From positions 2,976,001 to 3,040,000 of the forward strand of contig OY730173.1 in assembly GCA_963422465.1 (NCBI GenBank): a stretch of DNA of 64,000 bases. The letters are read 5' to 3'. Below, piece by piece: positions 2,926 to 62,612 of this stretch. Numbering within the stretch: position 1 is the stretch's first letter; each line of letters begins with the position of its first letter. The position numbers and the translations under genes were made by a program. The notes beneath the pieces are model-generated. The model did not search any database and was not told the DNA's origin. It saw only the letters and a program-made list of their open reading frames with translations. This DNA comes from Lichina pygmaea (lineage: Eukaryota > Ascomycota > Lichinomycetes > Lichinales > Lichinaceae).

Positions 2926-3240
2926 ATGCCTCCAAAGTCATGTGCGACTGTTAGCGGAACTCAGCTTGCTGCTCAAATCTGTGATCAGGGTTTTGTTTCA
3001 CGTACACCCTGCAACTTTTGTGTTCTTCGTGGTCATCTGTGCTTCCAGATGTCAGGAGAAGACAATAAGTTGAAATGTGCTGCGTGCACTCAGTGTGGAA
3101 GGTCTTGTGTCTCTGTGTTCTGGGAATCTCTGACATGTCCTGGGACAACCTCCGTGAGGATGTGGCCGCTGACAAGGCAACACACGACACACTCTTTGAA
3201 CAACTTGCCACAGTGCAGACTTGTCTGTCTCAGAAGTGAA
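2926..3240 (+). pseudogene. B1 antisense frame, Zn2Cys6 cluster protein
   Basis: A plus-strand frame lies inside a minus-strand element, between chromodomain and 3' LTR. It opens at ATG 2926, 44 bp from the LTR edge and 68 bp past a TATAAATA box in the LTR. The translation carries six cysteines spaced C-x2-C-x6-C-x11-C-x2-C-x6-C, which is the GAL4-type Zn2Cys6 pattern; the loop between the second and third cysteines reads VLRGHL. The homologous frames of B2 and B3 continue with a short leucine-bearing helix. It is a fossil. A role as a DNA-binding regulator is inferred. Confidence 0.7.
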
Positions 3241-7602: not shown

Positions 7603-8201
7603 TGTTGCAGTCTGTACTGTACTGTCCTATCTGAGTATAGAATTAGGGTGAGAGGTGGAAGGCAGGTTGGTTCTCGCAGGAGAGGAGTGTCAAGGAGTGC
7701 GAAGAGGTTTGGTGGAACATGGTGGTGGTGACACCTGATCAACAGCTTCGTACAAAAGGATTGTATTGAATTAGATCTAGTTGTCTGGATCACAACATGA
7801 GTTGAAGACAATTGTTCCATAAGAGAACTATCGCTGGACTATATAGTGCTGGCCTGTCAAGACAATCAAGATTGTCTTGACAGTCTCAACATCAAGACAG
7901 GTGAGATTGTCTTGACAGTCCCACCATGTTATGCACCCTGCGTCAAGACAGGTGAGATTGTCTTGATGCTTCATGCATCCTGTGTTGAGACTGGTGAGAT
8001 TGTCTTGATGCTTCATGCATCCTGCGTCAAGACTGGTGAGATTGTTTTGATGCTTCATGCATGCTGCGTCAAGACTTCTGTGTGTCTTGACAGTCACGTG
8101 ACCCCTTGTTGGTTGGTCACTTGACTTCCATGGTGTCCTCTTGCCTGGCCCGCGGCCTGATTGCCTATAAATAAGTGGCTCCCATCCCCTGGGTCGTAAC
8201 A
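7603..8201 (-). repeat. 3' LTR of B2, U3 type II (GTCAAGAC palindromes)
   Basis: This LTR is 599 bp. The U3 block holds an inverted repeat at 7856-7881 (GTCAAGACAATC, 2-base spacer, and its reverse complement) followed by units of about 50 bp with GTGAGATTGTCTTGATGC. The sense TATA box CTATATAG is at 7839-7846 (minus strand) and TATAAATAA at 8166-8174 (plus strand). The flanks (about 7603-7850 and 8100-8201) match type I LTRs closely while the repeat block does not. Confidence 0.85.
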
Positions 8202-8239: not shown

Positions 8240-8745
8240 TTGAGTATGTCTGCAAAATCACGTGCCTCTGCTTACCGAAACCAACTGGCAGCCCAGATCT
8301 GTGATCATAACTTTGTGTCGCTTGCTCTGTGTGACTTCTGTGTTTTGAACCACAAGCCCTGCTTCCAAATGTCTGACAACAACAATAAGTTGAAGTGCAC
8401 TGAATGCACTTGTTGTGGGAAGTCCTGTGTGTCACTTTCTTGGGAGTTGTTGAACATGACTCAAGATAACCTTCGTGAGGATTTGGCTGTTGATGAGGCC
8501 AAGCAGGATGCTCTTGTTGAGCAGCTTGCCAAGCTGCAGGCTTGTGTGTCCCGAAAGTGAAAGGTTCTTGAGAGTGCTGAGGGTTGAGCGAAGAAGAAGC
8601 TCCAGTGCCTTGTTGCTGAAATAGAGGTGGATGGTGAAGATTTATCAGTGACAGTCATTGACGTGTCCACGCTGCAGGCTGAGCTGTTCAGTCCTACTTC
8701 TGCCGGAACTGCTGCAGGAGGAGTGGGCAGTTCGCAAGGTTCTTG
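8240..8745 (+). pseudogene. B2 antisense frame, Zn2Cys6 cluster protein
   Basis: The plus-strand frame starts at 8240, 38 bp from the LTR edge and 66 bp past the TATAAATAA box. Six cysteines follow C-x2-C-x6-C-x11-C-x2-C-x6-C. The loop between the second and third cysteines reads VLNHKP, unlike VLRGHL in B1 and B3, whose LTR palindromes are also different. A helix with heptad leucines and valines (about 8,470-8,550) follows. The frame runs towards, and overlaps, the 3' end of the pol gene on the other strand. It is a fossil. Function as a regulator is inferred from the Zn2Cys6 pattern. Confidence 0.72.
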
Positions 8746-11622
8746 AGTGGTTCCCAGGTATTTTCTGAGTCTGGGTAGTTTTTCCACTTGACAAGGTATT
8801 GCTGACCTTTTCTCTTCAGAATCTGTTCAGCCTCAAATTCCTGTTCTTCTTCAGGTTGGTAATGGAATGTTTCCTGCAAGGGTGTGCTCTGGTCGGCTGG
8901 TTCAATCATTGATATATGAAAGTTTGGATGGACTCTGGCATCCCTTGGTAGTTGTATCTTGATGTTGACTGGTCCTGTTTTTTCTTCAACCGAAAATAGT
9001 CCGATCTTGATGTTGTCAAGTTTCTTTGTTTTTGGTTTCTTTGTTTTCCAATTTCTTGTAAGGAGGTAGACTTTATCCCCCTTCTTTAGCTGAGGTGCCA
9101 TTTTCAATTTCTTGTCTATTTGATGTTGCATTCTTTCTGAGGTCTCTTGAAGGTAGTGCCTCATCATCGTGTGCGTTTGTTGTAGGAGCTTGTCATGTTG
9201 GAGTGCTTTCTCCATGTTTGGTGAAGCTCTGCTTGGTATTCTGATGTTCGCATGTTGTCCAAAATTGGCAAAAAATAGCGATTCCTTTGTTGAGTCTGAT
9301 CTGTGCTGGTTGATTGCCAGCTGTGCCACCAGTAATAACTGTACCCAATTGCTGTGGGTCTGGTTGATGTAATGCTGTAAGTAAGTCTCCAGGACTTGGT
9401 TTGCTTGCTCTGTCTGGCTGTCAGTTTGTGGGTGATAGGCCGTAGACATTTTGGGTTTTGTTCCCATGGCTGCACTGATTGTCTTCCAGTAGTTGGATGT
9501 GAAGAGTTTGTCTCTGTCTGTAATGATCATGATCAGAACTCCGTGGTCTCTAACCAATCTGTCCAGTAAAAGGTGCCCCAACTGTTCTGCTGTGTGGGTC
9601 TCCTTGAATAGTACCACTATTAGATATTTTGTGAATCTGTCCACTATCACCATAATCAAGTTGTAGGTGATTCCTGTGACTGGGTCTTTGGACTTGGGTA
9701 GTTTTGTGATGAAGTCCATTGACATGTCTTCCCACAGACCTCTCGGTATCATGTTCGGGTGTCCTTCTCCGTATAGCTTGTGTCTTCCATGTTTGTTTTT
9801 CTGGTATAGTAGACACTTGCTGATGTAGTTTGTGACATGTTGTCAGAGGTTAATGACATTGTTCCCTGCCTGTTGGATAAGGTCTGTGGTCTTGGAGATT
9901 CCTGGGTGACCATGTGCTGGATTATCGTGGTAGTTCCTTATTAGTTCTTCAGTGTCTTCTGCTGTGAGCTTGTTGATCTGTGGCTGAGGCACCAGGTTTC
10001 CTTGCTGGTCCTGCTGTAAGATTGTTCCTTGGTGTTCATCATCTTCCATGTGGTTTTTTTGTCAGCTTAGTGCGTCTGCTCTCCTGTTGTCTTGTCCAGG
10101 GGTGTACAAGATCTTGAACTTGTGTTGCCCTAGGAGTTCAGCCCATCTGACTTGCTGTCTGTTCAGCTTCTTGGTTGTTGTGAACGTTGTCAGATTCTTG
10201 TAGTCTGTGAGAACAGTGAGTTCAGAACTGCTTTCCGTGTACACTCTCCAGTGTTTGAGTGCGTTGACAACTGCCAATAGCTCTTTGTCGTGGATATCAT
10301 AGTTTTGTTCCACTTGTGTTATTTTTCGTGAGTAGTAGGCAACTGGGTGCCACTTGCTGTCTGCCTGTTGGTATAGACATGCTCCTACTGCCTGATCTGA
10401 AGTGTCTGTCTTGATTTGTGTTGGTTGGCCTGTCTTGAAGTTGTGGAGAACTGGTTCCTTGGCGCAAGTGTCCTTGAGCTGTTGGAATGCTTTTTGTTGT
10501 CTCTCTGTCCACCAGTACTCCACGTCCTTCTTTGTGAGTTCTGTTAGTGGTGTTGCCATCTGTGAGTAGTTCTTAATGAACTGTCAGTTGAAGTTGGCAA
10601 ATCCTAGGAAGGCTTGTACTTCCTTAACTGACATCAGTGTTGGCCATTGCTGAATCACTTTGATTTTCTCAGAGTCAATCTTGATCCCTTTAATCTCTAT
10701 AACATATCCAAGGAATTCAACTTCCAGTTTGTTGAACTCGCATTTCTTTGGGTTGAGCTTGAGCCCTACCTGTTGTAGGCATTGTAGAACATCCTTCACA
10801 TGTTTGGTATGTTCCTGTTGCGTGTTCGAGTAGACAAGAATGTTGTCCAGGTAGGTGATAGCTGTTTAGTCCAGGTGTGCTCTGATGATGTTATTGATCA
10901 ATGCTTGACATGTTGCTGGTGTGTTTGTGAGTCCGAATAGCATAACCAGATACTTGTAGTGTCTGTATCAGGTTCTGAAGGCTGTCTTCCATTCTTCTCC
11001 TTCTTTCATGCGTATCAGGTTGTATGCTTCTTTCAAGTCCAGCTTGGTAAAGATTGTAGCTTGGCTGATCCTGTCTCGCAATTTGTTTGCATTTGGCAAC
11101 AGATATCAGTTCTTGATAGTAATGTTGTTGAGTTTCCTGTAATCCACACAAAGTCGAAGACTTCTGTCTTTCTTTGGTGCAAATAGTATTGGGTATCCTG
11201 CTGGCGATTGAGATTCTTGAATGAAACCCTTTTTCAGGTTTTCCTCCAGGTACTCGCGAAGTACTTGGAGCTCTTTCTCTGATAACTGGTAAATTGGTCC
11301 AAATCCTGGCTCTGTCCCTGGTTGCAACTTGATTTCATGATCCCAAGGTTGGTGCTTAGACAACACTGCTGTTGTTGTCTCTTCCTGAAAGAGGTTATCA
11401 TACCCAGGTCAGTACTCTTCAGAGATCTCCAGAGGGTTAACAACTTTCTCTCTCTTCATCTCTGATTGTTTGGCCACCTGGTTCTGGGGTGTGCCTGTCA
11501 AGGTGGACCTCTTCTCTTGAGAGTCATCCTTTCTGTCAGTGAGGTTCCACTGAGGACTTCTTCCCTCATCTGTCCACGCCTTCTGCGGCTGGTAACAGGT
11601 CCGAGCTGTGTTGTTAGTGCAG
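8694..11622 (-). pseudogene. B2 pol: RT, RNase H, integrase, chromodomain (part of protease in the other arm)
   Basis: On the minus strand this holds reverse transcriptase (about 11366-10590), RNase H (10559-10062), the integrase zinc region and core (about 9950-9000, with MDFITKLPKS, TDRDKLFTSNYW and TDSQTEQ) and a C-terminal chromodomain (about 8870-8700, [16 protein letters not shown]). It is the best-preserved pol of lineage B, but still broken. Confidence 0.85.
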
Positions 11623-12035
11623 TGTTAAAGGCCAGTCCACGTTCACACAGAATGTGGGTGGTCCTGTCTTCAACCGAGGAGGGCAGGGACTCAATAGATG
11701 AATAGCAAGTGGGGTAACTCTCTTGCTATTGTCACTCGTAATGTGCGTTCAGCCTGGAGAGCTATTCTCTCCGGCTATCTGGGTTCTTATATACAGGAGC
11801 CTGAGGGGGGGGGGTCCTCCCAAGGAGTATCAGCTTTCTGCGTGGACGAGCTGGACGAGCTGGTTACACATCGTCCACCTTGTCCACCGGGTCGGGTGAA
11901 CATTGTTCCTGTGGACGAGCTGGACGAGCTGGTTACACATCGTCCACCTCGTCCACCGGGTCGGGTGAACATTGTTCCGTGTACCTCTGTACACTCACTT
12001 CGGTCAGCTCAGCTGTTCCGGCCTGGGCCTTAACA
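11623..12035 (-). repeat. 3' LTR of C1 with two 69-bp U3 units
   Basis: The LTR contains two copies of a 69-bp unit, each with GTGGACGAGC and with CCGGGTCGG (11887-11895 and 11956-11964), an everted pair of CGG triplets. The partner LTR at 17568-17980 also has two copies. C2 LTRs have one copy, which accounts exactly for their 344-bp length. Confidence 0.88.
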
Positions 12036-12087
12036 CCATCCCCTCCCTCCAAAGGTTCTGTCCCCAGATCCTCTCACTTCTCTTACC

Positions 12088-12618
12088 ATGACCCGGACAT
12101 CTCGTGTTAATCATCGTGGAGTCCTCAGTTCTCGTGTTGGCAAGATGGGCAAGGTATCCAAAGTTTCATGCAGCGCATGTCGTCGTGACCGTGCCAAGTG
12201 TGTCGTCAGTTCAGAGTCCACATTTTGCGGTCAGTGCCTTGAGAAGAGACGCTGTTGCGATCTCCATCTCGCGGAGTCGGAGTGGGAGAAGATGGAGCTT
12301 GAGCGCACTCAGCTCGAGGCTCAACTGAAGGAGATCAAGGAGCAGGAGTCTGTTCTTCTTCCTCGCAAACTTCGTCTCTGTCGTCAGTTGGGTGTGTTGT
12401 CCAAGAAGGAGGGTGAGGCCATCAAGTGTGAGCTTGCTGCGATCAAGGATCAGGAGGATCTCGAGCAGGAGGCTACGTGTGTGGAGTCCCCGCCGCCTTT
12501 GGAGGACTTCTTCTCTTCGGAGGCTTTGGCTTCTCTCAAGCCTTTGTCTCCATCGATCCTGGCTTCTGCGGGTTTTGTCAGTGGAAACTCCGCAGTTTCT
12601 TGTTTGTCGCAGGGCTGA
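12088..12618 (+). pseudogene. C1 antisense frame, Zn2Cys6 plus coiled-coil protein (176 aa frame)
   Basis: This is an open plus-strand frame inside the minus-strand element C1, starting 52 bp from the 3' LTR edge. Residues about 28-58 hold C-x2-C-x6-C-x8-C-x2-C-x6-C with a basic loop (CSACRRDRAKC), the canonical GAL4-type Zn2Cys6 pattern. Residues about 65-130 are heptad-rich (coiled coil), and the C-terminal third has a conserved acidic-hydrophobic patch ([10 protein letters not shown]). Its end overlaps the chromodomain end of pol tail-to-tail by about 40 bp. The related frames in A and C2 keep all six cysteines. Zn2Cys6 proteins of fungi bind DNA as dimers, so a regulator of the element is inferred. 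Confidence 0.78.
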
Positions 12619-15600
12619 AGTTCTCGGTGGGTTCCCACAAGTTCTCCTCATTGTCATACTCTAACCACTTGACCAGGTATTCAATTTTCCGTCCACTTCT
12701 CCGGCTGTCTAGGATCCTTTCGACATCGTACTCTTCTTCGTCGTCCTCAAAGTGCCATTCTGTTTTGATTGCTGCATCGCTGGGTGCTGGCTCAAGCAGC
12801 AAGACGTGGAATACTCGGTGTATCCGTGCCTTTTTTGGCAGTCTCAGTCGGTAGTTGACTTCTCCAGTGCGCTTCTCAATCTCAAACAGTCTGATTCGTA
12901 CATGATCTAGCTTTTTGCTCGGTCGCTTCAAGCGCAGGTTTTTTGTTGACAAATAGACCTTATCCCCCCTCTCCAGGGTTGGTCCCTTCAACCTTTTGCT
13001 GTTTAGGTGGTGGCTTGTTGTCTTTTGTGCGGATTCAATTGCAGTCTTCATTTCCTCATGCATAGTAGTGAGTTTTTCGACGTTCGTTGAAGTGCCACTT
13101 CCAGCCGCCATCACTTCCCAGCGGGGGTTTCTGCTGTAGTTCGCAAAGAACAGCGTCATGCCCGTCACGCTGTGTTGCTGATCGTTGTACGCAAACTGAG
13201 CCATTGGTAGCAGTTCTACCCAATCGTCCTGTCGGTGGTTGACGTAGTGGCGTAGGTACTGTTCCATCATCTGGTTTGTTCTCTCAGTTTGTCTGTCTGT
13301 TTGTGGATGGTAGGCAGTAGACATTCTTGTGTCTATCCCTAGCTGTCTTGTCCACGTGTTCCAGAATTTCGAGGTGAAGAGTTTGTCTCGATCTGAGATA
13401 ATCTTCGTGGGTAGCCCTCGCTGGCTAACCAATTCTTTGAGCAGGACATTGGCGAGTTCGCTCGCTGTTCCTGTCTCTCGCCACAGGATCAGGTGAGCGT
13501 ATTTGGTGAGTTTGTCAACAACCACCAAGATACTGTCATATTTCACCTTTGTTACCGGGTCCTCTGACCTCGGCAGCTTCACCACAAAATCCATTGTGAT
13601 GGTATCCCAAGCCACTTCTGGGAGGTCCATTTGTTGACTCTCTCCATAGGGTTTGTGGCGTGACAGTTTGTTTTTCGCACACTCTTCGCAGTTGCGAATA
13701 AATTCCGTCACTTTCCACTTCATTCTGTTGAAGTGGTAACGTCTCCAGATCTTTTCCAGGGTCTTGTCTTGCCCAGGATGTCTGTGTAGAGGTCCATCGT
13801 GATGTTGTTGAATCACGTCCTCTTGTGCGCTCTCTGGCACTTCTTCCTTGTTCGTGGCCGCAACGTTGTGGCCTAGGGTCAGGAGTGCACCCATTTCTTC
13901 AGTTCTCGCTAACTGAGGTTGAGCATAGACCAGAGTTTGTCCTTTTGTCGCTAGGATTGGGCGCTCTTCTGTCGTGTCGTCTGTCGTCATATCAGGCCGT
14001 CTGCTAAGTGTGTCCGCTTGTGCGTTTTCTGATCCTTTTCGATAGAAGATCTGGAAGTCGTATGAAGCTAAAAGCTCCACCCATCGGACTTGTCATCTGT
14101 TTAGCTTCTTCGTCGTCGTGAAGTAAGCCAAATTCTTGTGGTCTGAGTACACATCCACTGTGTACTTTGCTCCTTCCAGGTAAGGTCTCCACTCCTGGAA
14201 TGCGTCGACAATCGCTAACAACTCCTTGTTGTGAACATCGTACCTGAGTTCTGGGCCAGAGAACTTTCTTGATCAGTATGCGACAGGGTGTAGGCAGTTT
14301 TCGGCGTCTGGTTGACACAAGCAAGATCCAAGTGCTTGGTCTGGGGCATCTGTCTCCATGATGATCTGCCGTCTGGGATCAAATGATGCCAGTATGGGTG
14401 CGGAGGTGAACTTCTCTTTCAGCTCCTGGAACACTCTCTCTTGGCTGTTCCCCCATGTGAAGGTTTCTTCCTTCTTTGTTAGTTCAGTCAAGGGTGCTGC
14501 TGTCCTCGAGTACTTCTTGATGAATCGTCGGTAGAAGTTCGCAAATCCTAGGAAGGATTGGACTTCTTTGAGGTTTTTGGGTGTTGGCCAGTCTCGTACT
14601 ACCGTGATCTTTGTATCGTCCATACAGATTCCTTCCGTCGTCAGGATCAATCCCAAATATTCCACTTCTTTCACGTGGAAGACACTCTTATCAAGGCGTA
14701 ACCTCATTCCTGCTTCTTGGAGTGCATGTAGGATCTTCTTGACATGCTGTTTGTGCTCCTCCAGAGTTCTATTGGTGTAAACCAAGACATCGTCAATATA
14801 AGCGGTAACAAATATATCCAGGTATTGTCGGAGGATGGTGTTAATAAGCGATTGGAACATCGCCGGTGCATTCGTAAGGCTGAATGGCATAACAGTATAC
14901 TCGTAATGCCCGTACCTCGTACGAAAGGCTGTCTTCCATTCTTCGCCATCTTTCATCCTAACCAGGTTGAAAGCGCCTCGGATGTCGAACTTGGTAAACC
15001 ACTTGGCTCCTTGGATTCAGTCCTGGATTTCTGATATTAACAGTAGCGGGTAGCGATTCTTAATCATGATTGTATTAAGCTGCCGGTAGTCAACGCACAG
15101 TCGTAATTTGCTGTCTTTCTTTGGCACAAACAATATCGGGTATCCGGCCGGTGATGTTGAAGGTCTTATGAACTCTTTCGCTAGGTTCTCGTCCAGGTAA
15201 TCTCTTAAGGCCTCAAGCTCCTTTGCTGATAGAGCGTAAATAGGGCCGTGTGTGGGTTTTTTTCTGTCTTCCAGCGGAATTTCGTGATCCCACTCTTAGT
15301 GTTCTGGTAGCGTCGCGACCGCTTCCTCACCAAACATCTCCTGGTAGTCTTTATACTCACTTGGCAGCTGCGGTGCCTGAGTCTCGCCCACGGCGTCATG
15401 CATGGTGCAAAGTTGATGGTTTCGGGGCTTCATCCAAGCCACATAGGCTCGCCCTCGCCGGTGGTGCTTCTTCCACCCTGCATATAAGATCTCTTTGATT
15501 CTCACTTTCTCTGGCTCTGCTCGAGTTGCCAGACTCCTCTTCGGAAAGACTAGGTACCTTCTTTTCCAGTCGATCCTTGGGTTTTGACTTTCCAACCACG

Positions 15601-16000
15601 GAAGACCCAATATAACTTCATGTGGTATCTGGACCAAGTTGAATTCTTCTGATCTGATTGTCGTACTGTCGACACACAGTCGTAGGTTCTTGGTCTCCTT
15701 CGTCACTCGTCCTTGGTTGTTGGAGAGTGGTGTCCCGTCCACTACTGTTAGTTGGTATGGATTCCTCTTTTCCTGAGTCGGGATCTTGTGCTTCCTGGCG
15801 AAACTTTCTGACATGAAGTTGCCAGTAGCTCCAGAGTCGATCATGGTGTTCGTCAGATGCCCGTTGACTCTCATCCTGATGCGAAAATACGGACTGCAGG
15901 CTGTCGCGTCAAGGCTCTGCTTGACCCCTTCTCTCCGGAGTGTTGTCTTGCCTGCTCTTCCAACTCCGGATTTGAAGAGCACTGCTAGTTTTTTGAACAA
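12578..16000 (-). pseudogene. C1 pol: protease, RT, RNase H, integrase, chromodomain
   Basis: On the minus strand this holds protease (about 15870-15580, DSGATGNF and LGLPWLES), reverse transcriptase (about 15240-14540, AYIDDVLVYT), RNase H (about 14370-14000), integrase with HHCC zinc region and core (about 13830-12960, MDFVVKLPRS, ISDRDKLFTSKFW, TDRQTER) and a chromodomain (about 12750-12590, [16 protein letters not shown]). It is broken. Confidence 0.88.
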
Positions 16001-17529
16001 CCAAGGCCCTGAGCCTGGTGTTCTGCCACGTGTCTTTCGCATTTTTCGGTGAAGCATAGCTCCCATGCGTCTTCTCCACAATCATCGTGTTCTTTCCCTT
16101 GCTGGCTTAGCTGGTGCTTGATGCTCCAGGCTTTCTTGTGGTATTCTGGGCCAGGGAAGTAGTGCCTTCTCCTTTTCTCTAGGAGATGTTCCTTGCAGTG
16201 GTGGTCCTCGCATCCTTTCCAATAAGGACGTCTGCAGGCTGGTGTCGTAGCCTGGTGAAGGTCCACTTGCGCTGCGATGTCTTGGGGCTGTGAGATGCTG
16301 ATGGTGTCATCCACCCATCGCATCACTCTTGCTTCGCCGTCCTCCGACAAGGTCGCATCCTGTTGTCGGAGTAGTGGTGTCTCGGGAACTGGTGGCATGC
16401 CAGTTATGTCAATCTCGTAGTCTGTTGTGTCGAATTCGGAGATCAGGTCATCCTCCCAATGAACCTTATCAATCTGGTCTTGGATTGCGTGCAGGTCCTC
16501 CAGTGACCTCTGCAGATCGTTCTCCAGTCTTTCGATGTGCTGTCTGAGATTGTCCTCCTGTCCGAGGAGTGTTGCTTCTGACCGGTTCATGGGTAGCGTG
16601 CCTCTGGGAGCCCTCGGTGGCTCCTGAATACCCTTGCCTTTCCAGGCACTGGTGGCATTCAACTGCTTACCCTTGCCTTCTTTCTTCTTCTTGCTTTGGC
16701 AGTTGGCTGCGAGGTGTCCTACCTTCTGGCAATTGTAACACTTCCGTGTTTCTTTCTTCTTTGTTGCCTGTGGTGTTGTTGCATCAATCTCCATGGGTGT
16801 CAAGCCGTACTTGTCTTGTGCTGGCGCTGTCTTTTTGCCCCATGGCCTTGCATGCTTGCCTCACTTCTCGAGTTCTTGTTCGAATTGTCGGTCGTTGATG
16901 TGTACCGCTGTGTCAATCATATCCTCAAGGTCGGTGGGTCAGTCTCCTCGTGCGATGTCATCCTTGACTTGTTCCTTGAGAGCTTGGTAGAATAGTGCTG
17001 TCAAGGCACTGTCTCCCCATTGCGTCCTCACTGACAACTGTTAGAACTTCGCCGCAAAGTCTGATGCTGACCCTGTCTGCCGTAGTGCTTGGAGCTTTCG
17101 TTCCGCATCTTGTTCTTCATCAATAACCCCAAAGGTCTTCTTCATCTGGGTCTTGAAGGTAGAGAATCTCCCAATGATCTGCCGTGTCGTGGTCTCCATG
17201 CTAGAGGGGTCTTCCTTGTTGTCGAGGAAGTCTCGTAGGTAGACGTTGAACTAGGCAAATGTCGGTCCGTCCAGGTAGGAAGCTGTGAACAGCACCTTCT
17301 CCTGTTCCGTAGGGAATTGTGTGGCGTTGAATCCGTAGTAAAGCTCAAGCTGAGAGAAGAATAATTCCAATCCCCCTCGTGATCCATCGTACCTCTTCGG
17401 CGTACCTACCTTCAACGGCTTTGGAGGTAAGGTGAGGGTGGTAGAGACAGGTGGTTCCTGGGCTTGCGCCTGAGGCGCAGCCCGGGCTTGGCCTGCCTGC
17501 GAAGGGGTAGGGCTGTGTGGATCTGCCAT
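15985..17529 (-). pseudogene. C1 gag with CCHC zinc knuckle
   Basis: The frame opens at ATG 17529. The capsid-like region includes ELFFSQLELYYGF, and the CCHC knuckle CYNCQKVGHLAANC lies near 16745-16700. It is the Ty3/gypsy gag of lineage C, broken. Confidence 0.85.
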
Positions 17530-17567: not shown

Positions 17568-17980
17568 TGTTAAAGGCCAGTCCACGTTCACACAGAATGT
17601 GGGTGGTCCTGTCTTTGACTGAGGAGGGCAGGGACTCAATAGATGAATAGCAAGTGGGGTAACTCTCTTGCTATTGTCGCTCGTAATGTGTGTTCAGCCT
17701 GGAGAGCTATTCTCTCCGGCTATCTGGGTTCTTATATACAGGAGCCTGAGGGGGGGGGGTCCTCCCGAGGGGTATCAGCTTTCTGCGTGGACGAGCTGGA
17801 CGAGCTGGTTACACATTGTCCACCTTGTCCACCGGGTCGGGTGAACATTGTTCCCGTGGACAAGCTGGACGAGCTGGTTACACATCGTCCACCTCGTCCA
17901 CCGGGTCGGGTGAACATTGTTCCGTGTACCTCTGTACACTCGCTTCGGTCGGCTCAGCCGTTCCAGCCTGGGCCTTAACA
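17568..17980 (-). repeat. 5' LTR of C1
   Basis: The LTR is 413 bp with TGTTAAAG...CTTAACA ends on the plus strand and two 69-bp units with CCGGGTCGG at 17832-17840 and 17901-17909. It differs from its partner only by transitions. Confidence 0.88.
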
Positions 17981-24083: not shown

Positions 24084-26997
24084 ATTACAAGTATACTGTG
24101 ATACTATTCAGTCTTACGAATACACTGGTGATATTCCAATCACTTATTAACACTGTTCTCTGATAATACCTGGACATATTTGTTATTGCCTACATCAACA
24201 ACATCTTGGTATACACTAATGGAACCTTGGAGAAGTATAAACAGTATATCAAAAAGATCCTACATGCACTCCAGAAAGCAGGCATAAGGTTACACCTTGA
24301 TAAGAGTGTTTTCCACACAAAAGAAGTGGAATATTTGGGGTTGATCCTAACAACAGAAAGAATCTGAATAGATGACACAAAGACAGCAGCAGTACAAGAC
24401 TGGCCAACACCCAAAAACCTCAAAGAAGTATAATCCTTCCTAGGATTTGCAAACTTCTACTGACAATTCATCAAGGACTACTCAAGAACAGCAGCAGTCT
24501 TGACAGAGTTAACCAGAAAGAACAAATCTTTCAGGTGGGGGGAGAGCTAACAAGTGGCCTTCCAGGAATTGAAGAATAAATTTATCTCCGCACCTATTTT
24601 GGCATTATTTGACTCTGAGAAGAGAATTATTTTGGAGACTGATGCCTCAGACCAAGCATTGGGATCCTGCTTGTGTCAACCAGACACCAACAACTGCTTA
24701 CACCCTGTCATGTACTGATCAAGAAAGTTCTCTGGCCCAGAACTGAGATATGATGTTTATAACAAAGAGTTGTTAGCAATTGTTGACACATTCCAAGAAT
24801 AGAGGCCTTACTTGGAGAGGGTAAAATACATGATATATGTGTACTCAGACCACAAGAACTTAGCTTACTTCACAACAATGAAGAAGCTAAACTGACAACA
24901 AGTTTGATGGGCAGAGTTGTTGGCATCATACAACTTTCAAATCCTCTACCAGAAGAGCACTGAAAATGCTTGAGTAGACACACTCAGCAGGTGACCAGAC
25001 CTGATGGACAAGAAAACAACAGAGGAACACCCAATCCTAGCGATGAAAGGACAAACCCTGGTCTATGCTCAACCCCAACTGGCAACAACTGAAACAAAAA
25101 GTCCACTCCTTACCCTTGGCCACAAGGTGGTAAACAAAAAGAAAATTGTGCCAGAAAGAGCACAAGAGGAGGTGATCCGGAGGCACTATGACAGGCCTTT
25201 GCACAGACACCCCGGGTGAGATAAAACCTTGGAGAAAATCCAAAGAAACTACCACTTTGACAGAATGAAGTGCAAGGTGACAGAGTTCATTCACAACTGT
25301 GAACAGTGTGTGAAGAACAAACTATCAAGACATAAGTCCTACGGGCAGGCACAGCAAATAGACCTACCCAAGACACTATGGGAAACTATCATGATGGATT
25401 TTGTGGTCAAGTTACCAAAGTCAATAGACGCAGTAACAAAGATAGTATACAATAGTATTTTGGTGGTTGTTGACAAGCTCACCAAATACACTCACCTGGT
25501 CCTGTGGAAAGAGTCAGGAACTGCGAACAAACTCACAAATGTTCTACTCAAAGAGCTGGTAAGCCACCAAGGGCTACCAAAAATAATTATCTCAGATTGA
25601 GACAAACTCTTCACTTCAAAATTCTGGAACATGTGGACAAGGCAACTTGGTATTAATACAAGGATGTCAACAGCCTACCACTCACAAACTGACAGACAAA
25701 CTGAGTGGACAAACCAGACAATAGAGCAGTATCTACAACACTACATCAACCACCAGCAGGATAACTGGGTGGAACTGCTACCAATAGCACAGTTTGTGTA
25801 CAACAACCAGCAACACAACATGACAGGGACAACACTGTTCTTTGCGAACTACAGAAGAAACCCCTGATGGCAGGCAACAGCAGGAGGCAATGTTGTTGAT
25901 GTTGATAAACTCACTGCTATGCACAAGATGATGAAAACAACAATCAACTGTGCCCAGAACACCACCACCCGCTGATTACACAACAAAAGGTTGAAGGGAC
26001 CAACCCTGGAAAAGGGGGATAAGGTCTACCTATCAACAAAAAACCTGCACTCAAAGCGACCAAGCAAAAAGCTGGACCACATACAAATCAGACTATTCAA
26101 AATCAAGAAGTGCACTGGGAAAGTCAACTATCAACTGAGACTACCACGAAAAGCAAGGATACACTGAGTATTCCACATCTCACTGCTTAAACCAGCACCC
26201 AGCAACACAAAGATCAAAACAGAATAGAACTTCAAGGACAACAAAGAAGAGTACGATGTTGAAAGAATTCTGGATAGCTGAAGAAACAGACAGAAAATCA
26301 AGTACCTGGTGAAGTGGTTAGGATTTGACAAAGAGAAGAATTTGTGGAAACCAACCAAGAACTTCAGCCCTGTGATAAACCAGAAGCTGGTGGATTACCA
26401 CTAAGCAAACCCGCAGTGACCAGGTCCGACAGTGACAACAGCTTGAGAGGAGCCAAAGTCTCTGAGGAGAAGATGTCCTCAAAGAACAGTGGAGCAGCAG
26501 TCTGACTGGCCTCCTGTTCACGAATAACACAGAGAGTCTCCTGCTCCTGAGCATCAAGAGACTCTTGATTCTTGATGGCTGACAGCTCACGACAGATAGC
26601 ATCAGCCTCTTTCTGAGAGAGACAACCCAGCTGCTGGTGGAGGTGGATCTGCCGGGGAAGCAACTTCAACAATTGGTTATCAGTCTCTCGCAGCTGAGCC
26701 TTGAGCTGCTCGCACTCAAGTTCCATCTTCTTCTATTCTGATTCTGAGAGAGGAAGGTCACAGTGACAACTCTTCTCAACACACTGACAACAAAAAGATG
26801 ATGCAGAGCTCACAACACACTTGGCATGGTCACGACAACAAGCACTGCATGTGATTTTCAATTTCTTGCCTATTTTGCCAATGTGACAAGAAAGAGAACT
26901 GCGATGACAAGTTCAAGTTGTCTGATCTCAGTTCATAACAAAAAAGGAGTAGGAATGAAAAGGATCTGGGGACAGAATCCTTGGAGGGAGAGGATAG
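24084..26997 (+). pseudogene. Element A pol arm: RT part, RNase H, integrase, chromodomain
   Basis: This is collinear with C2 from 37,145 onward: reverse transcriptase from the palm region, RNase H (ETDASDQALGSC near 24640), the integrase zinc region (about 25190-25330), core (MDFVVKLPKS near 25395), and chromodomain (about 26270-26400). It is the most decayed of the three lineages. Nearly every CpG of C2 that I compared is TpG or CpA here. Many breaks. Confidence 0.85.
26364..26960 (-). pseudogene. Element A antisense frame, Zn2Cys6 plus coiled coil
   Basis: A minus-strand frame lies inside a plus-strand element, between chromodomain and 3' LTR. The cysteine part (about 26845-26765) reads C-x2-C-x6-C-x8-C-x2-C-x6-C, identical in spacing to lineage C. 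A leucine/glutamine-rich heptad segment follows, and a C-terminal patch EDIFSSETLA corresponds to [10 protein letters not shown] in C1. It keeps these features although the rest of the element is strongly decayed. Confidence 0.7.
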
Positions 26998-27420
26998 TGT
27001 TAAGACCTAGGCTGGAACAGCCCAGGTAAGTGAGGGAGGAGTGTTAGTCATACAGAACAACATCCAACTGATCTGGTGGATAGGCAAGAGCTAAGCAAAG
27101 AGCTTGTCTGGTGGACAAGCAGGAGCTAAGTGAGGAGCTTGTCCGGTGGACAAGCAGTCTCTAAGCAAGGAGCTTGTCCACACAAAAGGATGATACTCCT
27201 TGAGGAGACTCCCCCCTTGGGGCATCTGTATAAAGACTCCCCAAAGGGCCCAGAGGGATTAGCTCTCTAGGCTGAACACACATACACACATCGTACTGAG
27301 ACAATAGTACAGAGAAAGCTTCTTATCTGTCTATTCCTCTACTGAGTCCCTGTCTAGAATCTGCCCTGCGAAGCAACAGACTGTACTGGCTTCTGTGTGA
27401 ACCCGGCCTGGTCTTTAACA
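26998..27420 (+). repeat. 3' LTR of element A
   Basis: The LTR is 423 bp with three 35-bp U3 units. It is followed by target duplication gtctg (27421-27425) and then LINE-a. Confidence 0.88.
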
Positions 27421-40018: not shown

Positions 40019-40362
40019 TGTTAAGGCCCAGGCCAGAACAGCTGAGCTGACCGAAGCGAGTGTACAGAGGTACACGGAACAATGTTCACCCGACCCGGTG
40101 GACAAGGTGGACGATGTGTAACCAGCTCGTCCAGCTCGTCCACGCAGAAAGCTGATACCCCTCGGGAGGACCCCCCCCCCTCAGGCTCCTGTATATAAGA
40201 ACCCAGATAGCTGGAGAGAATAGCTCTCCAGGCTGAACGCACATTACAAGCGACAATAGCAAGAGAGTTACCCCACTTGCTATTCATCTATTGAGTCCCT
40301 GCCCTCCTCGGTCGAAGACAGGACCACCCACATTCTGTGTGAACGTGGACTGGCCTTTAACA
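40019..40362 (+). repeat. 3' LTR of C2
   Basis: The LTR is 344 bp with one 69-bp unit; CCGACCCGG lies at 40090-40098. It is preceded by the purine tract GGAGGGAGGGGATAG. Confidence 0.9.
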
Positions 40363-40882: not shown

Positions 40883-41200
40883 TCACTTCTGAGACAGACA
40901 AGCCTGCACTGTGGCAAGTTGTTCAAAGAGTGTGTCGCGTGTTGCCTTGTCAGTGGCCACATCCTCACAGAGGTTGTCCTGGGACATGTTCAGAGATTCC
41001 CAGGACACAGAGACACAAGACCTTCCACGCTGAGTGCACGCAGCACATTTCAACTTATCGTCTTCTCCCGACATCTGGAAGCACAGATGACCACGAAGAA
41101 CACAAAAGTTGCAGGGTGTACACGAAACAAAACCCTGATCGCAGATTTGAGCAGTAAGCTGAGTTCGGCTAACAGTCGCACATGACTTTGGAGGTATGAC
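40883..41200 (-). pseudogene. B3 antisense frame, Zn2Cys6 cluster protein
   Basis: This minus-strand frame has the same relative position as in B1 and B2, with the loop VLRGHL between the second and third cysteines as in B1. It is a fossil of the same antisense gene. Confidence 0.68.
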
Positions 41201-41240: not shown

Positions 41241-41922
41241 TGTTACGACCCAGGAGGAACACAGTCTTTATATACTCACAGAAAGCAGCAGACAGGATAC
41301 TGGACAGAAGTACCAGGCAGCGTGACACGGGAACCAGTCACGTGACTGGTGAGACAAACTGGAGGGTGCTCGCCGCAGCATGCATATACACAAGCAAGTG
41401 AGCAAAGTGAGCAGAGCTCACCCAGCTCACCACAGTGTGCATGAAAAGTGAGCAAAGTGAGCAGAGCTCACCCAGCTCGCTGCAGTGTGCATGAACAAGT
41501 GAGCAAAGTGAGCAGAGCTCACCCAGCTCACTGCAGTGTGCATGAACAAGTGAGCAAAGTGAGCAGAGCTCACCCAGCTCGCCGCAGCGTGCATGAACTG
41601 TGAGCAAAGTGAGCAGAGCTCACCGATCTCACCAAGTGAGCAAAGTGAGTAGAGCTCACTGTGCTCACGAACTGAGCACTATATAGTCTGGCGATAGTTC
41701 CCTTATGGAACAATCATCTTCAACTCATGTTGTGATCCAGACAACTAGATCTACTTCAATACAATCCTTTTGTACAAAGCCATTGATCAGGTGTCACCAC
41801 CACCACGTTCCACCAAACCCCTTCGCGCTCCTTGACACTCCTCTCCTGCGAGAACCAACCTGCCTTCCACCTCTCACCCTAATCCTATACTCGGATAGGA
41901 CAGTACGGTACGGACTGCAACA
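41241..41922 (+). repeat. 3' LTR of B3, U3 type I
   Basis: The LTR is 682 bp with about five GTGAGC/GCTCAC units between TATATACT (near 41272, read as an antisense TATA box) and CTATATAG (near 41680). GTCACGTGAC lies at about 41337-41346. Confidence 0.88.
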
Positions 41923-45361: not shown

Positions 45362-47084
45362 TCATTGCACCTTGCTGCTGTCCTTTAGCGCTCGCTTGGC
45401 CTCCTTCTTCTTCTTCTTCTTCTGCTCCTTGCGTTCTGCTTGTTCTTCTTCCGTCTCTCCTTCTCGCTTTCGTTTCTTCTTCTTTTGCGGTTGCTGCTCC
45501 TGGGCTTGCTGGGCTTGTGGCTGTACTGACGAGGAGTCGCCGTTGGCGCTGACGGGGATAGGTGATGCGTTGACGGGCGGTATGGACGGCGCCGCGGGTG
45601 CTTCGCTCTTGACTGTCCTTTCGCTGACCGGCTGTGGCCTGGCGGCGTTGTCACCTGTGCTGGTTGGAGCGTTGTAGTCTTTGTAGTCTTGGTTCCATTT
45701 CGCTGGCGTTGCTTCGTTGGCACGGCCATATTTCTAGACGGCATGTCAGCCATTCCTATCGCCTTATTAGATACTGACACGGCCGCTCACGTCGAGTTTC
45801 CCGTCTGCCTTCATCTTCTTCTTTTCCAGCGCAACCGGACCCAGGCCCCATCGCCTCGGGTACGTGTCGCGTTCCATGATACATCGCTTCACCTTGGCCA
45901 CAACGCCGTGGTCGCACGTGGTCAGCTCGACGGTCGACATCTGAGCGATTCCCAACGCGATGGCTTCGCCCTTGGTCGTCATCAGTACCACTTCCTCGTG
46001 CAGCTCAATGCCCGCCTCTGTTTCCTAGTGTCAGCAGTTGCTCCCACTCAGCGACGGTGTTGCCATTACCGTATCTGAGCAGGCCTGGAATCATGAGCTT
46101 TGCGCCGTAGCAGACGGCGTTGACAGCGCTGTCCTTGACCACGATCCGCTTGTATGTCGTAAGGAGGCTCTCGAGCGGCTGTATGGCCTTCCGGAGGTAC
46201 GTCTCGTCCCGCATGTTGTCGTACATCCATTGAGCGTCTAGCATGTCGTGGAGCGTCACCATGCCCTCTTGCTCGTTCATAGCGCCGCTTCGTACTCTTC
46301 GCAGCTCCTGCATATGTGCTCCGACTCCGAGCAGCAGCCCAAGATGGACGCATAGCGTCCGGATGTATGTGCCCGCCTCACAGCTGACCCAGAAGACCCC
46401 GAGATGGCGGTTGTTGTCGAACTCGAGCAGCTTGCTCTCGTGAATTGTCCGTATACGCAGCTGTCTCTTGACCGCAGAGATCAATGGGGGTCGCTGGAAC
46501 AACGCTCCAGTGAGAGTCTCAAGTGCCCGAGCAAGCTGGGCTTCGCCGCCGGGGAGAGTATCATGCAACCGAATGACGCAGACGTATTCCTTGCCAGCTC
46601 CTTGCTGCGACTTGACAAGCCGCGTGGCGCGGTCGAGGCAGACGATCAGACATCCAGTGACTTTGGGGTCAAGCGTTCCGCTGTGGCCTGTCTTGTCGAT
46701 CCTAGGCTCCGTCAGCAGCTGACATCGCTCTTTGGTACTCCAGTCCGAGACTGCACCCACCTTAACATCCGCTTGACCCATGCTACAACCTCGTGGCTAG
46801 ATGGGTTGGAAGGTTTGTCGAGGTTGATCACACCAGCGCTGATATACGCTTTGAGGTCACGCCGTAGGGGCGTACATCCATGCGGTATTGGTGTGAAATG
46901 GCCGGTTCGAATGAGCACTGCTAGGATTTAGATACAGAAAACGGCCAAGATACAGTCTGCAATAGCCCTCACGTTTATCGTAGCTCTTAAGCAACAACGG
47001 CCACTCGCTGGTGTCCACAGGCGGGGCCGCAGCTTGCGGCTTGATCGAGAAATCAGTCTCAGTACTTGCCACCACGACAGACAT
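45362..47084 (-). CDS. CBF5: CBF5/dyskerin, H/ACA snoRNP pseudouridine synthase (five exons)
   Basis: This is the catalytic subunit of H/ACA ribonucleoproteins, which convert uridine to pseudouridine in rRNA and snRNA in the nucleolus. Exons (minus strand): 47084-46973, 46920-46761, 46701-46070, 46017-45791, 45733-45362; introns are 52-59 nt with GT/AG ends; the total of 1,503 nt gives 500 aa. Visible parts are [10 protein letters not shown] at the start, [15 protein letters not shown], the catalytic loop [12 protein letters not shown] (Asp about 102), the TruB core ([16 protein letters not shown]), the PUA domain ([34 protein letters not shown]) and a lysine/glutamate-rich tail ([16 protein letters not shown]). 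The similarity to eukaryotic CBF5 is strong throughout, and length and order are normal. The half-LINE insertion ends about 85 bp beyond the stop codon. Confidence 0.96.
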
Positions 47085-60653: not shown

Positions 60654-62612
60654 TTACTTGGCAAGACCGACCACCCGCTGGAGAGAGGCAGCCAAGGAAG
60701 GAAAGAACGACAGCAGCAGGACCAGAGTACCTAGGATGAAGACGACCGCCGTGGATATACTGGACCTTGTCGAGGGCATGCTCTGGACTCGGTCGATCCC
60801 GACCCGGTTCTTGCCTGGCGGTGCGGCGCCCGGATCGTCGTCGTTGCTGGGCCAGGGCCGGGCGACGCCGGACGCGTCGAGGATCTGTTCCGTCGTGACC
60901 TTGCTGCCGGCCAGGCAGACGGGCACGCCCGTGCCCGGGTGCGTGCTGGCGCCGACGAAATAGCAGCGCTCGATGTCCGGGTGCTTGGTGCTCGGACGGA
61001 AGGACAGCACGTTGAAGAAGCTGTGGCTGATGCCCAGGATGGCGCCTTTGTCGAGGTTGAACCGCTCCTTCCACGACGCCGGCGTGTTGACGTACTCGTT
61101 GACCACGGCCTGGCGAAGACCGCGCGCGCCGGTGCGCGCCTCGATGGTCGAGAAGACCGTCTCGCGCGCCCGTGCGATCATCTTGGCCCAGTCCTGGTCG
61201 CTGCGCGGCGACAGTCCCCGCTCCGCGCCGTGGTCGAGAAGATGGCCGACCGGCACAAGCACCACGACGCTGTCCTTGCCGCGAGGCGCCGCGGTGGGAT
61301 CGACCCGGCTCGGCACGTTCACGTAGAAAGACGGCTCGTTCGGCATCAGTTGCCGGTCGAAGATGTCGTCGAAGGATCCCCGGTAATCGTCCGCCAGGAA
61401 GATATTGTGCGTGAGCAGTTCCGGAACGACACGGTCCATGGACCAGTAAAAGGAGATGCTGCTGCAGGACGCAGCCTTCTTGGAAAGACTCTTTGCTCGT
61501 TTGGACGGCGGGAACAGGTTGCTGTAGGCGTACACGAGATCGGCGTTCACGACGACGACATCCGCGTTGAGTTGCTCTCCCGATGCGAGCTGCACCCCCG
61601 TTGCCGTACGTCCGTCGGGTGACAAGGCGACGGATGAGACTGGCGTCGACAGACGATACTTGACCCCAAGCCGTTTGCCAACACTCACGAGAGCTTCTAT
61701 GACCTTTTCCGAGGATGAGCAACCGGAACTGTAGCGTCCGTGAGATGGAAACAGGGGCGGGGCCTTACCCGGTGAAAACCACCCTCGGGATACCATATGC
61801 CCTCGGCCAGCTCGGTGTATTGCAGCAGAGAGTATGTGCCAGGCGCGTCGTAGGGGCTCATGCCCATATACATGCTGCCAAAGGTGAAGGTCCTGCGGAG
61901 CCGCTCCGTCGAGAAATACCTCGAGGCGCGGCTGTAGACGGACTCGAACGGATGCAGGTCCAGAAGGAAGGGCAAGAAGCTCGGCCGCAACATCGAAAAG
62001 AAAGAGCCGAAATTCTTGCGGAGGACGTGGATGACGCTGACCTCGTAGTGCCGATGGGACTCCTGCAAGAAGCCGAGATAGCGCTCAAATCCGTCCTTGC
62101 CCTCCCACTTCTCGACCTCGAGCTTCATCCGGGCGAGATCGGTCGACAGCTCGATCGACTTGCCATCGGCGAACCAGAGCTGGTAGTTGGGCTCGCATTT
62201 CAGGAGCTTCACGCCTTCCGCCTCCAGGCTCGTTCCTAGGTCGTGAAAGGCTTCGGTGAAGAATCGGGGCAGCAACAGGAGCGAGGGTCCTTGGTCAAAC
62301 CGCTACCACGCGACGTCATGTGTCAGCCCTGCGTACACGCGCTCAATAACTCTGCTGGCCGTCGCTCGTCGATGGGGCTTACGTAGGCATCGTTGTGGAT
62401 CAAAGAGCACCTCCCGCCAGTGAAAGAGTTCTTCTCCACCACCGTCACGTCAAAGCCGGCCTTGGCCAAGCGGGCCGCCGTCGATACCCCTCCAACACCA
62501 GCACCTGCGTCGGCCTAGTTAGCCCCGGGGGCCATCACCCTGCGAGCAAACGACGAGGTGGCCGCTCACCAATGACGACGGCTGTCCCAGCCCTACCGCT
62601 CTTGCCGTCCAT
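60654..62612 (-). CDS. Phytoene desaturase, CrtI family (four exons)
   Basis: Exons (minus): 62612-62570, 62504-62383, 62302-61769, 61703-60654; introns are 65, 80 and 65 nt; 1,749 nt, 582 aa, the usual length for fungal al-1/carB enzymes. It inserts double bonds into colourless 15-cis-phytoene to give lycopene or 3,4-didehydrolycopene, with FAD, at membranes. Visible parts are the dinucleotide-binding fold VVIGAGVGG at residues 12-20 with ARLAKAGFDVTVVEKN, RFDQGPSLLLLP, and WYPEGGFHRV across the third intron. The C-terminal family signature FVGASTHPGTGVPVCLAG lies at about 482-499, and a membrane segment (AVVFILGTLVLLLSFF) near 548-565. All blocks are intact. No carRA or carotenoid oxygenase gene is seen beside it within the window. 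Confidence 0.95.

Follow-up and report, generated by a model that had tools for sequence, protein, structure and literature searches.

An antisense gene with a Zn2Cys6-like cluster in Ty3/gypsy chromoviruses of Lichina pygmaea and its exchange together with U3 arrays

Several LTR retrotransposons of the ascomycete Lichina pygmaea carry an open frame that runs against gag-pol, between the chromodomain and the 3′ LTR, and that spells out the six cysteines of a GAL4-type (Zn2Cys6) regulator. Is this frame a gene and, if so, what would a retrotransposon do with such a protein encoded on the opposite strand beside its own LTR? We addressed this in a stretch of 64 000 nucleotides (the window; positions 2976001–3040000 of contig C5) and in its source genome of 32.5 Mb in 8 contigs. 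The left 42 kb of the window is packed with nested LTR repeats. Host genes lie beyond this element cluster: one that we take to be a Cbf5-like pseudouridine synthase (46005–46781, minus strand) and, presumably, a phytoene desaturase of CrtI type that seems to have an intron (60654–62275, minus strand). One MAT alpha-box match was found in the genome and points to a filamentous ascomycete. A sequence-only reading had interpreted the frames as an antisense Zn2Cys6 gene of three element lineages, an interpretation that is supported here, since none of the three outcomes named as refuting it was observed.

Antisense frames in the window and the genome

The intact copy, in element C1, encodes 176 residues (12088–12618, plus strand) and is oriented opposite to pol, starting 52 bases to the inside of the 3′ LTR and ending 41 bases into pol. 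It consists of a Zn2Cys6-like cluster (12169–12258), a long helix and an acidic-hydrophobic C-terminal patch. C1 is a minus-strand Ty3/gypsy chromovirus, with a CCHC gag, protease, reverse transcriptase–RNase H, integrase, chromodomain and LTRs; the Pfam domain evidence for this class comes from the C1 pol pieces only. The 3′ part of pol (12578–14092, minus strand), with integrase (H2C2 and rve) and chromodomain, is convergent with the antisense gene, and the broken upstream pol/gag frames (14273–16860, minus strand) contain matches to reverse transcriptase and RNase H (14276–15016), aspartyl protease (15299–16081) and a CCHC knuckle (15988–16860), all on the minus strand. The 3′ LTR (11623–12035, minus strand; TGTTAAAGGCC...GGCCTTAACA) was delimited by sequence reading and repeat boundary and is followed by a purine-rich tract of the element strand at about 12036–12055. 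The 5′ LTR (17568–17980, minus strand; repeat boundary, end approximate) carries a U3 array at 17786–17923 like that of the 3′ LTR.

The other five copies in the window are damaged to different degrees. C2 has the same frame as C1 (39436–39966, minus strand) with one internal TAG, and its 3′ LTR begins at 40019. The old copy in A (26364–26936, minus strand) has three stops, keeps all six cysteines (26760–26849) and likewise starts just inside its 3′ LTR (26998–27420, plus strand). B2 (8246–8743, plus strand; cluster 8330–8428; 3′ LTR 7603–8201, minus strand) has two stops after residue 104 and is laid out like C1, overlapping an opposite 352-residue frame (8694–9752, minus strand) that is taken as pol. 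In B3 (40883–41200, minus strand; 3′ LTR 41241–41922, plus strand) ATA stands at the start in place of the others' ATG, and from about residue 70 on B1 (2926–3240, plus strand; LTR about 2201–2882) no longer follows the frame of its relatives. An antisense frame that lies between the chromodomain and the 3′ LTR is thereby confirmed, with the cysteine spacing kept in 6/6 copies as the sequence-only reading had it. Its count of lineages has to be revised: the proteins of B1 and B3 (B′) are only about 60–70% like that of B2 (B), which raises the number of lineages from three to four.

The window was searched in six frames with regular expressions for the Zn2Cys6 signature. The strict form, which we take to be PROSITE PS00463, has exactly three matches (A, C1 and C2); the spacing-only form adds B1, B2 and B3 and two matches inside LTR repeats (2558–2641 and 41482–41565). 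The latter come from a chance CxxC...C in one frame of the B′ LTR repeats, a false match for searches of this kind. Neither form matched in 100 simulated 64 kb sequences (first-order Markov).

Searching the genome with the C1 protein yielded 276 candidates, of which 150 were scored: 53 of 61 C-type matches (86–100% identity) and 39 of 89 more distant ones (57–68%) have no stop, and at least 150 A/C copies are present. The B and B′ searches gave 538 and 496 candidates (150 scored each; the two lists may overlap and the counts are lower bounds). The frame is thus present at hundreds of places, in four lineages, and the expectation of similar frames in other elements of the family holds. We fetched 30 C, 20 A, 30 B and six B′ copies. 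The C and B loci are the 30 best matches each, the A regions were hand-picked (all but L051 from matches without a stop) and the B′ regions were picked for long open frames; as best matches or open-frame picks, they give shares of intact or recombinant copies for the sample and not for the genome. In two regions, part of the antisense frame is present a second time close by on the opposite strand (L036, 3–128; L057, 1376–1558; both minus frames), which points to nested or adjacent insertions.

Coding conservation and the predicted protein

Silent changes outnumber replacement changes per site in both comparisons between lineages, which bears out the suggestion of past selection on the protein. 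The dN/dS ratio is 0.256 for A against C (600 pairs; 0.297 with possible CpG transitions masked) and 0.174 for B against B′ (180 pairs; 0.227 with the same masking). One A and one C copy (L041 and L037) show 65 differences over 130 silent sites and 71 over 394 replacement sites (Fisher p = 6.5e-12); for one B and one B′ copy (L066 and L095) the figures are 76 over 120 and 67 over 375 (p = 3.4e-20). Among the other five frames of the same alignments (last 42 bases trimmed; B represented by its four stop-free copies only), four have dN/dS of 1.0–1.9 together with stops. The fifth, complementary frame has values of 0.38 and 0.23 with stop counts of 8.0 and 6.8, and is read as a shadow of the antisense frame. 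As a yardstick, the adjacent end of pol has a dN/dS of 0.34 (221 pairs), computed from those copies whose pol fragment is open (17/30 C and 13/20 A). Comparisons inside a lineage give 0.31 for A, 0.39 for B, 0.30 for B′ and 0.67–0.75 for C; the last says little because the C copies are young and differ mostly by CpG decay. Between lineages there is also an in-frame length difference of 12 codons. The antisense frame is a conserved protein-coding gene under purifying selection. Differences between copies (L009–L058 and L059–L088) are largely CpG transitions (13.6 of about 19 per pair within C), a decay that resembles methylation- or RIP-type mutation.

The cluster reads SCSACRRDRAKCVVSSESTFCGQCLEKRRCC in C1 and TCSACCRDHAKCVVSSASSFCCQCVEKSCHC in the window copy of A. 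Among the fetched copies, the pattern C-x2-C-x6-C-x5-12-C-x2-C-x6-8-C is found in 27/30 C, 17/20 A, 29/30 B and 6/6 B′, and the strict signature, with basic residues between the second and third cysteines, in 25/30 C, 17/20 A, 0/30 B and 0/6 B′. The B and B′ proteins have the spacing C-x2-C-x6-C-x11-C-x2-C-x6-C and an acidic-hydrophobic tail. The proposed scan with the Pfam Zn_clus model (PF00172) had a mixed outcome: 16 of 26 A/C proteins (an alignment drawn from 46 stop-free proteins) match at E up to 10, the best at 0.0088, but all lie below the Pfam cut-off, and neither the window copies (C1, A, B1, B2 and B3; 0/5) nor the B/B′ proteins (0/7) match. In the first A/C member, the match covers residues 27–58 with 15.7 bits against a gathering threshold of 21. 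The coiled-coil family Spc24 matches 8/26 A/C proteins, with a best E of 0.0056, slightly better than that of Zn_clus.

An AlphaFold2 model of the C1 protein, built from five window sequences (mean pLDDT 68, about 60–80 in the cluster), has helices at residues 29–33, 48–52 and 63–131. The heptad segment pointed out earlier is accordingly predicted as one long helix, 63–131, and the two short helices directly follow cysteines 1 and 4, as short helices do in GAL4-type clusters. In a Foldseek search of this model against the PDB, 20/20 matches at E ≤ 10 are Zn2Cys6 proteins (best E 0.07, none ≤ 0.001), which we take to include PUT3, Pho7, Leu3, HAP1, GAL4, PPR1, the Aspergillus nidulans ethanol regulator (AlcR) and, as PDB entry 1cld, LAC9; we give weight to the unanimity of these matches to a predicted model and not to their E-values. 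The C-terminal patch that A and C had been said to share is real and lies after the long helix. By its sequence and predicted model, the A/C protein appears to combine a GAL4-type Zn2Cys6 signature with a long helix and an acidic-hydrophobic tail.

The Zn2Cys6 identity proposed for all lineages is accordingly supported for A/C, but for B/B′ it is a putative assignment by cysteine spacing and position. The model of the B protein (pLDDT 45) is unusable for the fold. Aligned with hhalign, the A/C and B/B′ profiles reach a probability of 3.1%, so that sequence does not show the two pairs of proteins to be homologous. Among nine hits of the A/C profile against PDB sequences, CYP1/HAP1 came only seventh and eighth, with E of 2.9 and 3.7 and after unrelated proteins, and none of the three hits of the B/B′ profile is relevant. 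No relatives were confirmed in IMG/VR with either profile. Small B-like proteins probably occur among the hypothetical proteins of filamentous ascomycetes. DUF3716 (PF12511) was considered as the family of B/B′ and rejected, with 1/7 proteins matching at E 0.055; none of 14 genomic PF12511 matches coincides with a B/B′ place among the 150 scored per search. Of three DUF3716 places examined, two look like host genes, and at the third (L098; G000:C2:3860400–3862600) the frame is convergent with a neighbouring, presumably integrase-like frame that belongs to a different decayed element; this may be a further type of element with an antisense gene rich in cysteines.

U3 arrays and their exchange with the gene

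The sequence-only reading did not mention the LTR arrays or their exchange, which we think are the more important part. In the window, Tandem Repeats Finder detects arrays in the U3 of all four lineages, with units of 35 bp (A), 69 bp (C1), 42 bp (B) and 51 bp (B′). The C1 array (11842–11978) has two copies of its unit and contains GGACGAG half-sites, spaced 9 bp in direct and 26 bp in inverted orientation; the 3′ LTR of C2 has three half-sites against six in C1. The decayed A array (27072–27178) retains four GGACRAG half-sites. TCAAGAC/GTCTTGA half-sites occupy about 7855–8090 in B2, with the 42-bp unit at 7931–8076, and B3 has a GTGAGC/GCTCAC array at 41395–41678. In B2, TATAAATA (8166–8173) and in B3, TATATAAA (41267–41274) read towards the antisense gene.

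The same words dominate in the fetched copies, counted over 470–740 bases upstream of the antisense gene. Upstream of the A gene, the most frequent 8-mer is GGACGAGC (5.8 per copy, 20/20 copies); upstream of the C gene, GTGGACGA and TGGACGAG lead (about four per copy, 30/30 copies; GTGGACGA first, with 4.0). Allowing for CpG decay, half-sites in the two orientations number 3.4/3.45 per copy in A, 3.9/2.0 in C, 5.0/6.6 in B (TC[GA]AGAC) and 10.5/11.5 in B′ (G[TC]GAGC; two window copies only). Frequent spacings are 25 and 10 in A, 26 and 9 in C, 17, 25 and 9 in B, and 9 in B′. Distances within the B arrays (L059–L088) seem to cluster at 9, 17, 25, 34, 42 and 51, near multiples of 8.5. All 82 copies examined contain a TATAWA word facing gag-pol at some point of the stretch; one facing the antisense gene, within 110 nt of its start, is found in 29/30 B and 2/2 B′ copies, and in 0/50 A/C copies.

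The inverted order of the half-sites exceeds chance only moderately. In single units picked by hand from less decayed copies, mononucleotide shuffles reached the observed value in 9/3000 (A), 33/3000 (C), 99/3000 (B, marginal) and 590/3000 cases (B′, not significant), giving a combined p of 1.8e-4 for these picked units; a third A/C pair (L040 and L019) was dropped from this test, since the array-start pattern is absent. With the window units, 1320 (A), 41 (C), 10 (B) and 219 (B′) of 2000 shuffles reached the observed value, and with shuffles of the whole stretch 42/800, 365/1200, 2/1200 and 52/1000, respectively.

The usual half-sites of GAL4-type proteins are CGG triplets, and those in the U3 arrays are not CGG. 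GGACGAG is common to A and C despite their different units (35 and 69 bp), and the half-sites differ between B (TC[GA]AGAC) and B′ (GTGAGC). The cluster residues follow suit, with CRRDHAKC in young A, CRRDRAKC in C, and CVLNHKPC and CVLRGRPC in B and B′. That near-identical clusters go with a common half-site in A/C, and that B/B′ differ in both, is the strongest hint that the protein may target its own LTR, drawn from two comparisons of sequences.

Alignment of young A with C copies revealed a mosaic. From about 100 nt past the gene, pol is 95–100% identical (C against C, 96–100%) and R-U5 98–100%, with the antisense gene at 58–87% and the array at 56–86%. Recombinants make up 15 of the 20 fetched A copies (L039–L050 and L052–L054, compared with L037 and L030): their identity to C is 0.97–0.98 in pol and 0.98–1.00 in R-U5, and 0.73–0.75 over the gene and the 150 bases before it. 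The remaining five (L051 and L055–L058) have an A-type pol (0.70–0.81 to C) and R-U5 (0.62–0.70), with R-U5 aligned over 50–99 of 116 bases in L044, L051, L055 and L057. The window copy of A is also parental (pol 0.77 and R-U5 0.58 to C). In the recombinant L041, the gene is 0.88–0.94 identical to three parental A copies and 0.75 to C, and pol is 0.78–0.81 identical to parental A and 0.98 to C. The word of the A array unit is present in 15/15 recombinants, 5/5 parental A and 0/30 C copies, and that of the C unit in 30/30 C and 0/20 A copies; whole-U3 identity is a weaker guide (L041, 0.70–0.83 to parental A and 0.65 to C). These identities define three classes: parental A, parental C, and a C backbone with an A cassette. 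As A gene and A array occur together on the C backbone, gene and candidate sites travel as one cassette, and in A/C they have been exchanged together onto another backbone. Three B copies show the same divergent block against one B′ copy (R-U5 0.95–0.98, array to gene end 0.45–0.79, pol 0.84–0.97 over the next 400 nt and then, from 880 nt on, 0.89–0.99), against 0.92–1.00 throughout between two B copies; parental and recombinant classes were separated for A/C only.

These mosaics could be ordinary recombination without functional meaning, the block being distinct only as the part 3′ of the breakpoint. Judging by the RNA layout, a single template switch close to the pol end would suffice for exactly this pattern, whatever lay 3′ of it; linked exchange follows from the position of any such switch and is by itself no proof of joint function. 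Against this, the block sits at the same place in two family pairs, and recombinants account for 15/20 fetched A copies (mostly open-frame picks), both of which leave room for neutrality. We consider a neutral origin possible but doubt it.

Proposed function and related systems

In our preferred reading, to which we assign a probability of about 0.58, this is a real antisense gene of Ty3/gypsy chromoviruses whose product would be expressed and act as a Zn2Cys6-type dimer on the element's own U3 arrays, moving with them as a specificity cassette. The protein would be expressed from the U3 of the 3′ LTR, dimerize through the long helix and bind half-sites in the element's own U3s. Binding would set the output of both LTRs, gag-pol transcripts from the 5′ LTR and those of the antisense gene itself from the 3′ LTR; given the acidic tail, we lean slightly towards activation over repression. 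Placed antisense beside U3, the regulator would stay linked to its sites at the 3′ end of the genomic RNA. With the RNA order R-U5-gag-pol-antisense gene-U3-R, and given what is known of reverse transcription, a single template switch near the end of pol could move both.

The protein could instead be a conserved DNA- or RNA-binding protein for another step, such as nuclear import, integration-site choice or chaperoning, with the U3 arrays serving as sites for host transcription factors. The B/B′ proteins match Zn2Cys6 poorly, and in the part of a review available to us the functions of plant antisense ORFs (aORFs) are given as unknown and the Grande protein as nuclear (PMC7264820). Such a role would not account for a half-site that A and C share in differently built arrays alongside near-identical cluster helices, for B/B′ differing in both, or for the joint travel of gene and array, and we regard it as unlikely, if far from negligible. 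That antisense RNA is the function (through double-stranded RNA, RNA interference or promoter interference), the open frame being incidental, is quite improbable. A precedent comes from barley powdery mildew, for which 823 of 5,127 lncRNAs are ascribed to the antisense strand of transposable elements in the accessible part of the report (PMC10648671), but a function in RNA fails to explain the strong reduction of replacement changes per site and a frame kept across lineages through a 12-codon length difference, which counts against it. A spurious frame or composition artefact, as the subthreshold Pfam scores and mostly broken window copies might suggest, is hardly credible in the face of the dN/dS values, the stops in other frames, the motif's occurrence in 0/100 simulated windows and the hundreds of copies.

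The original paper on brtn, an antisense gene of fungal Ty3 elements, is said to be that of Zhao in 2011. In the available parts of the sources, brtn is the antisense gene of Boty-like Ty3 elements in Botrytis and Sclerotinia (PMC7264820, PMC8365987, PMC4227169), placed by a review between pol and the 3′ LTR (PMC7264820), and a Monilinia transcript resembles BRTN (PMC5987419); PMC9409477 yielded nothing on brtn. The Boty elements are likewise fungal LTR elements with gag, protease, reverse transcriptase, integrase, chromodomain and an extra antisense gene; compared by description, they differ in that the same parts mention neither a zinc cluster nor U3 sites nor an exchange of cassettes. The plant Ty3 aORFs (Grande gene23, RIRE2, Retand and PvRetro13) resemble the present gene in position, orientation, presence in most copies and conservation like that of other element proteins, but the available text reports no clear similarity to known proteins save an SMC domain in PvRetro13 and does not mention linked U3 sites (PMC7264820). 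Site between pol and 3′ LTR, orientation, many copies and coding conservation were all found here, as in an antisense aORF. The function of antisense genes in LTR elements is stated as unknown in the accessible part of the same review (PMC7264820). In open-access literature (titles and starts of abstracts), we recognized no LTR element with a Zn2Cys6 protein on its antisense strand and found neither U3 sites nor cassette exchange for such genes.

In the GAL4-type Zn2Cys6 family, a cluster is followed by a helix, and there is an acidic tail. The present proteins are like PUT3, Leu3, HAP1, GAL4 and PPR1 in six-cysteine spacing and in this layout, but are encoded by an LTR element, have about 165–190 residues without the long middle region, and are associated with half-sites that are not CGG. 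HBZ of HTLV-1, a bZIP protein, is also the product of an antisense regulatory gene of a retroelement, as the present gene would be; here the protein has a zinc cluster and the U3 array is its candidate target. In the immunity regions of lambdoid phages, regulator and operators differ as one block between near-identical elements, as gene and array do here; the present elements are eukaryotic retroelements, in which exchange by template switch, and regulation itself, are our proposals. HTLV, according to the accessible part of the review, has an antisense promoter in its 3′ LTR (PMC7264820).

Antisense genes of fungal Ty3 elements were known already (brtn); the half-site arrays in the U3 of four lineages and the gene–array cassette are new. 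By analogy with the phages, we tentatively suggest that the cassettes might work like phage immunity: each Zn2Cys6 dimer would control only elements with its own U3 array, swapping the whole cassette by one template switch would escape or renew control, and elements identical in gag-pol and R-U5 would be mutually 'heteroimmune'. To our knowledge, the principle of regulatory immunity comes from phages and not from retroelements. If cassettes confer specificity, families of fungal retrotransposons would be told apart by regulatory immunity and not by their enzymes. The case offers a concrete, testable role for an antisense gene: it would encode the element's own transcription factor, whose candidate sites can be seen in the LTR of the same element. 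It also suggests a reason for the antisense place beside U3, namely that regulator and sites would stay linked when elements recombine. If the preferred reading is right, these abundant jumping elements would carry a control circuit of their own making.
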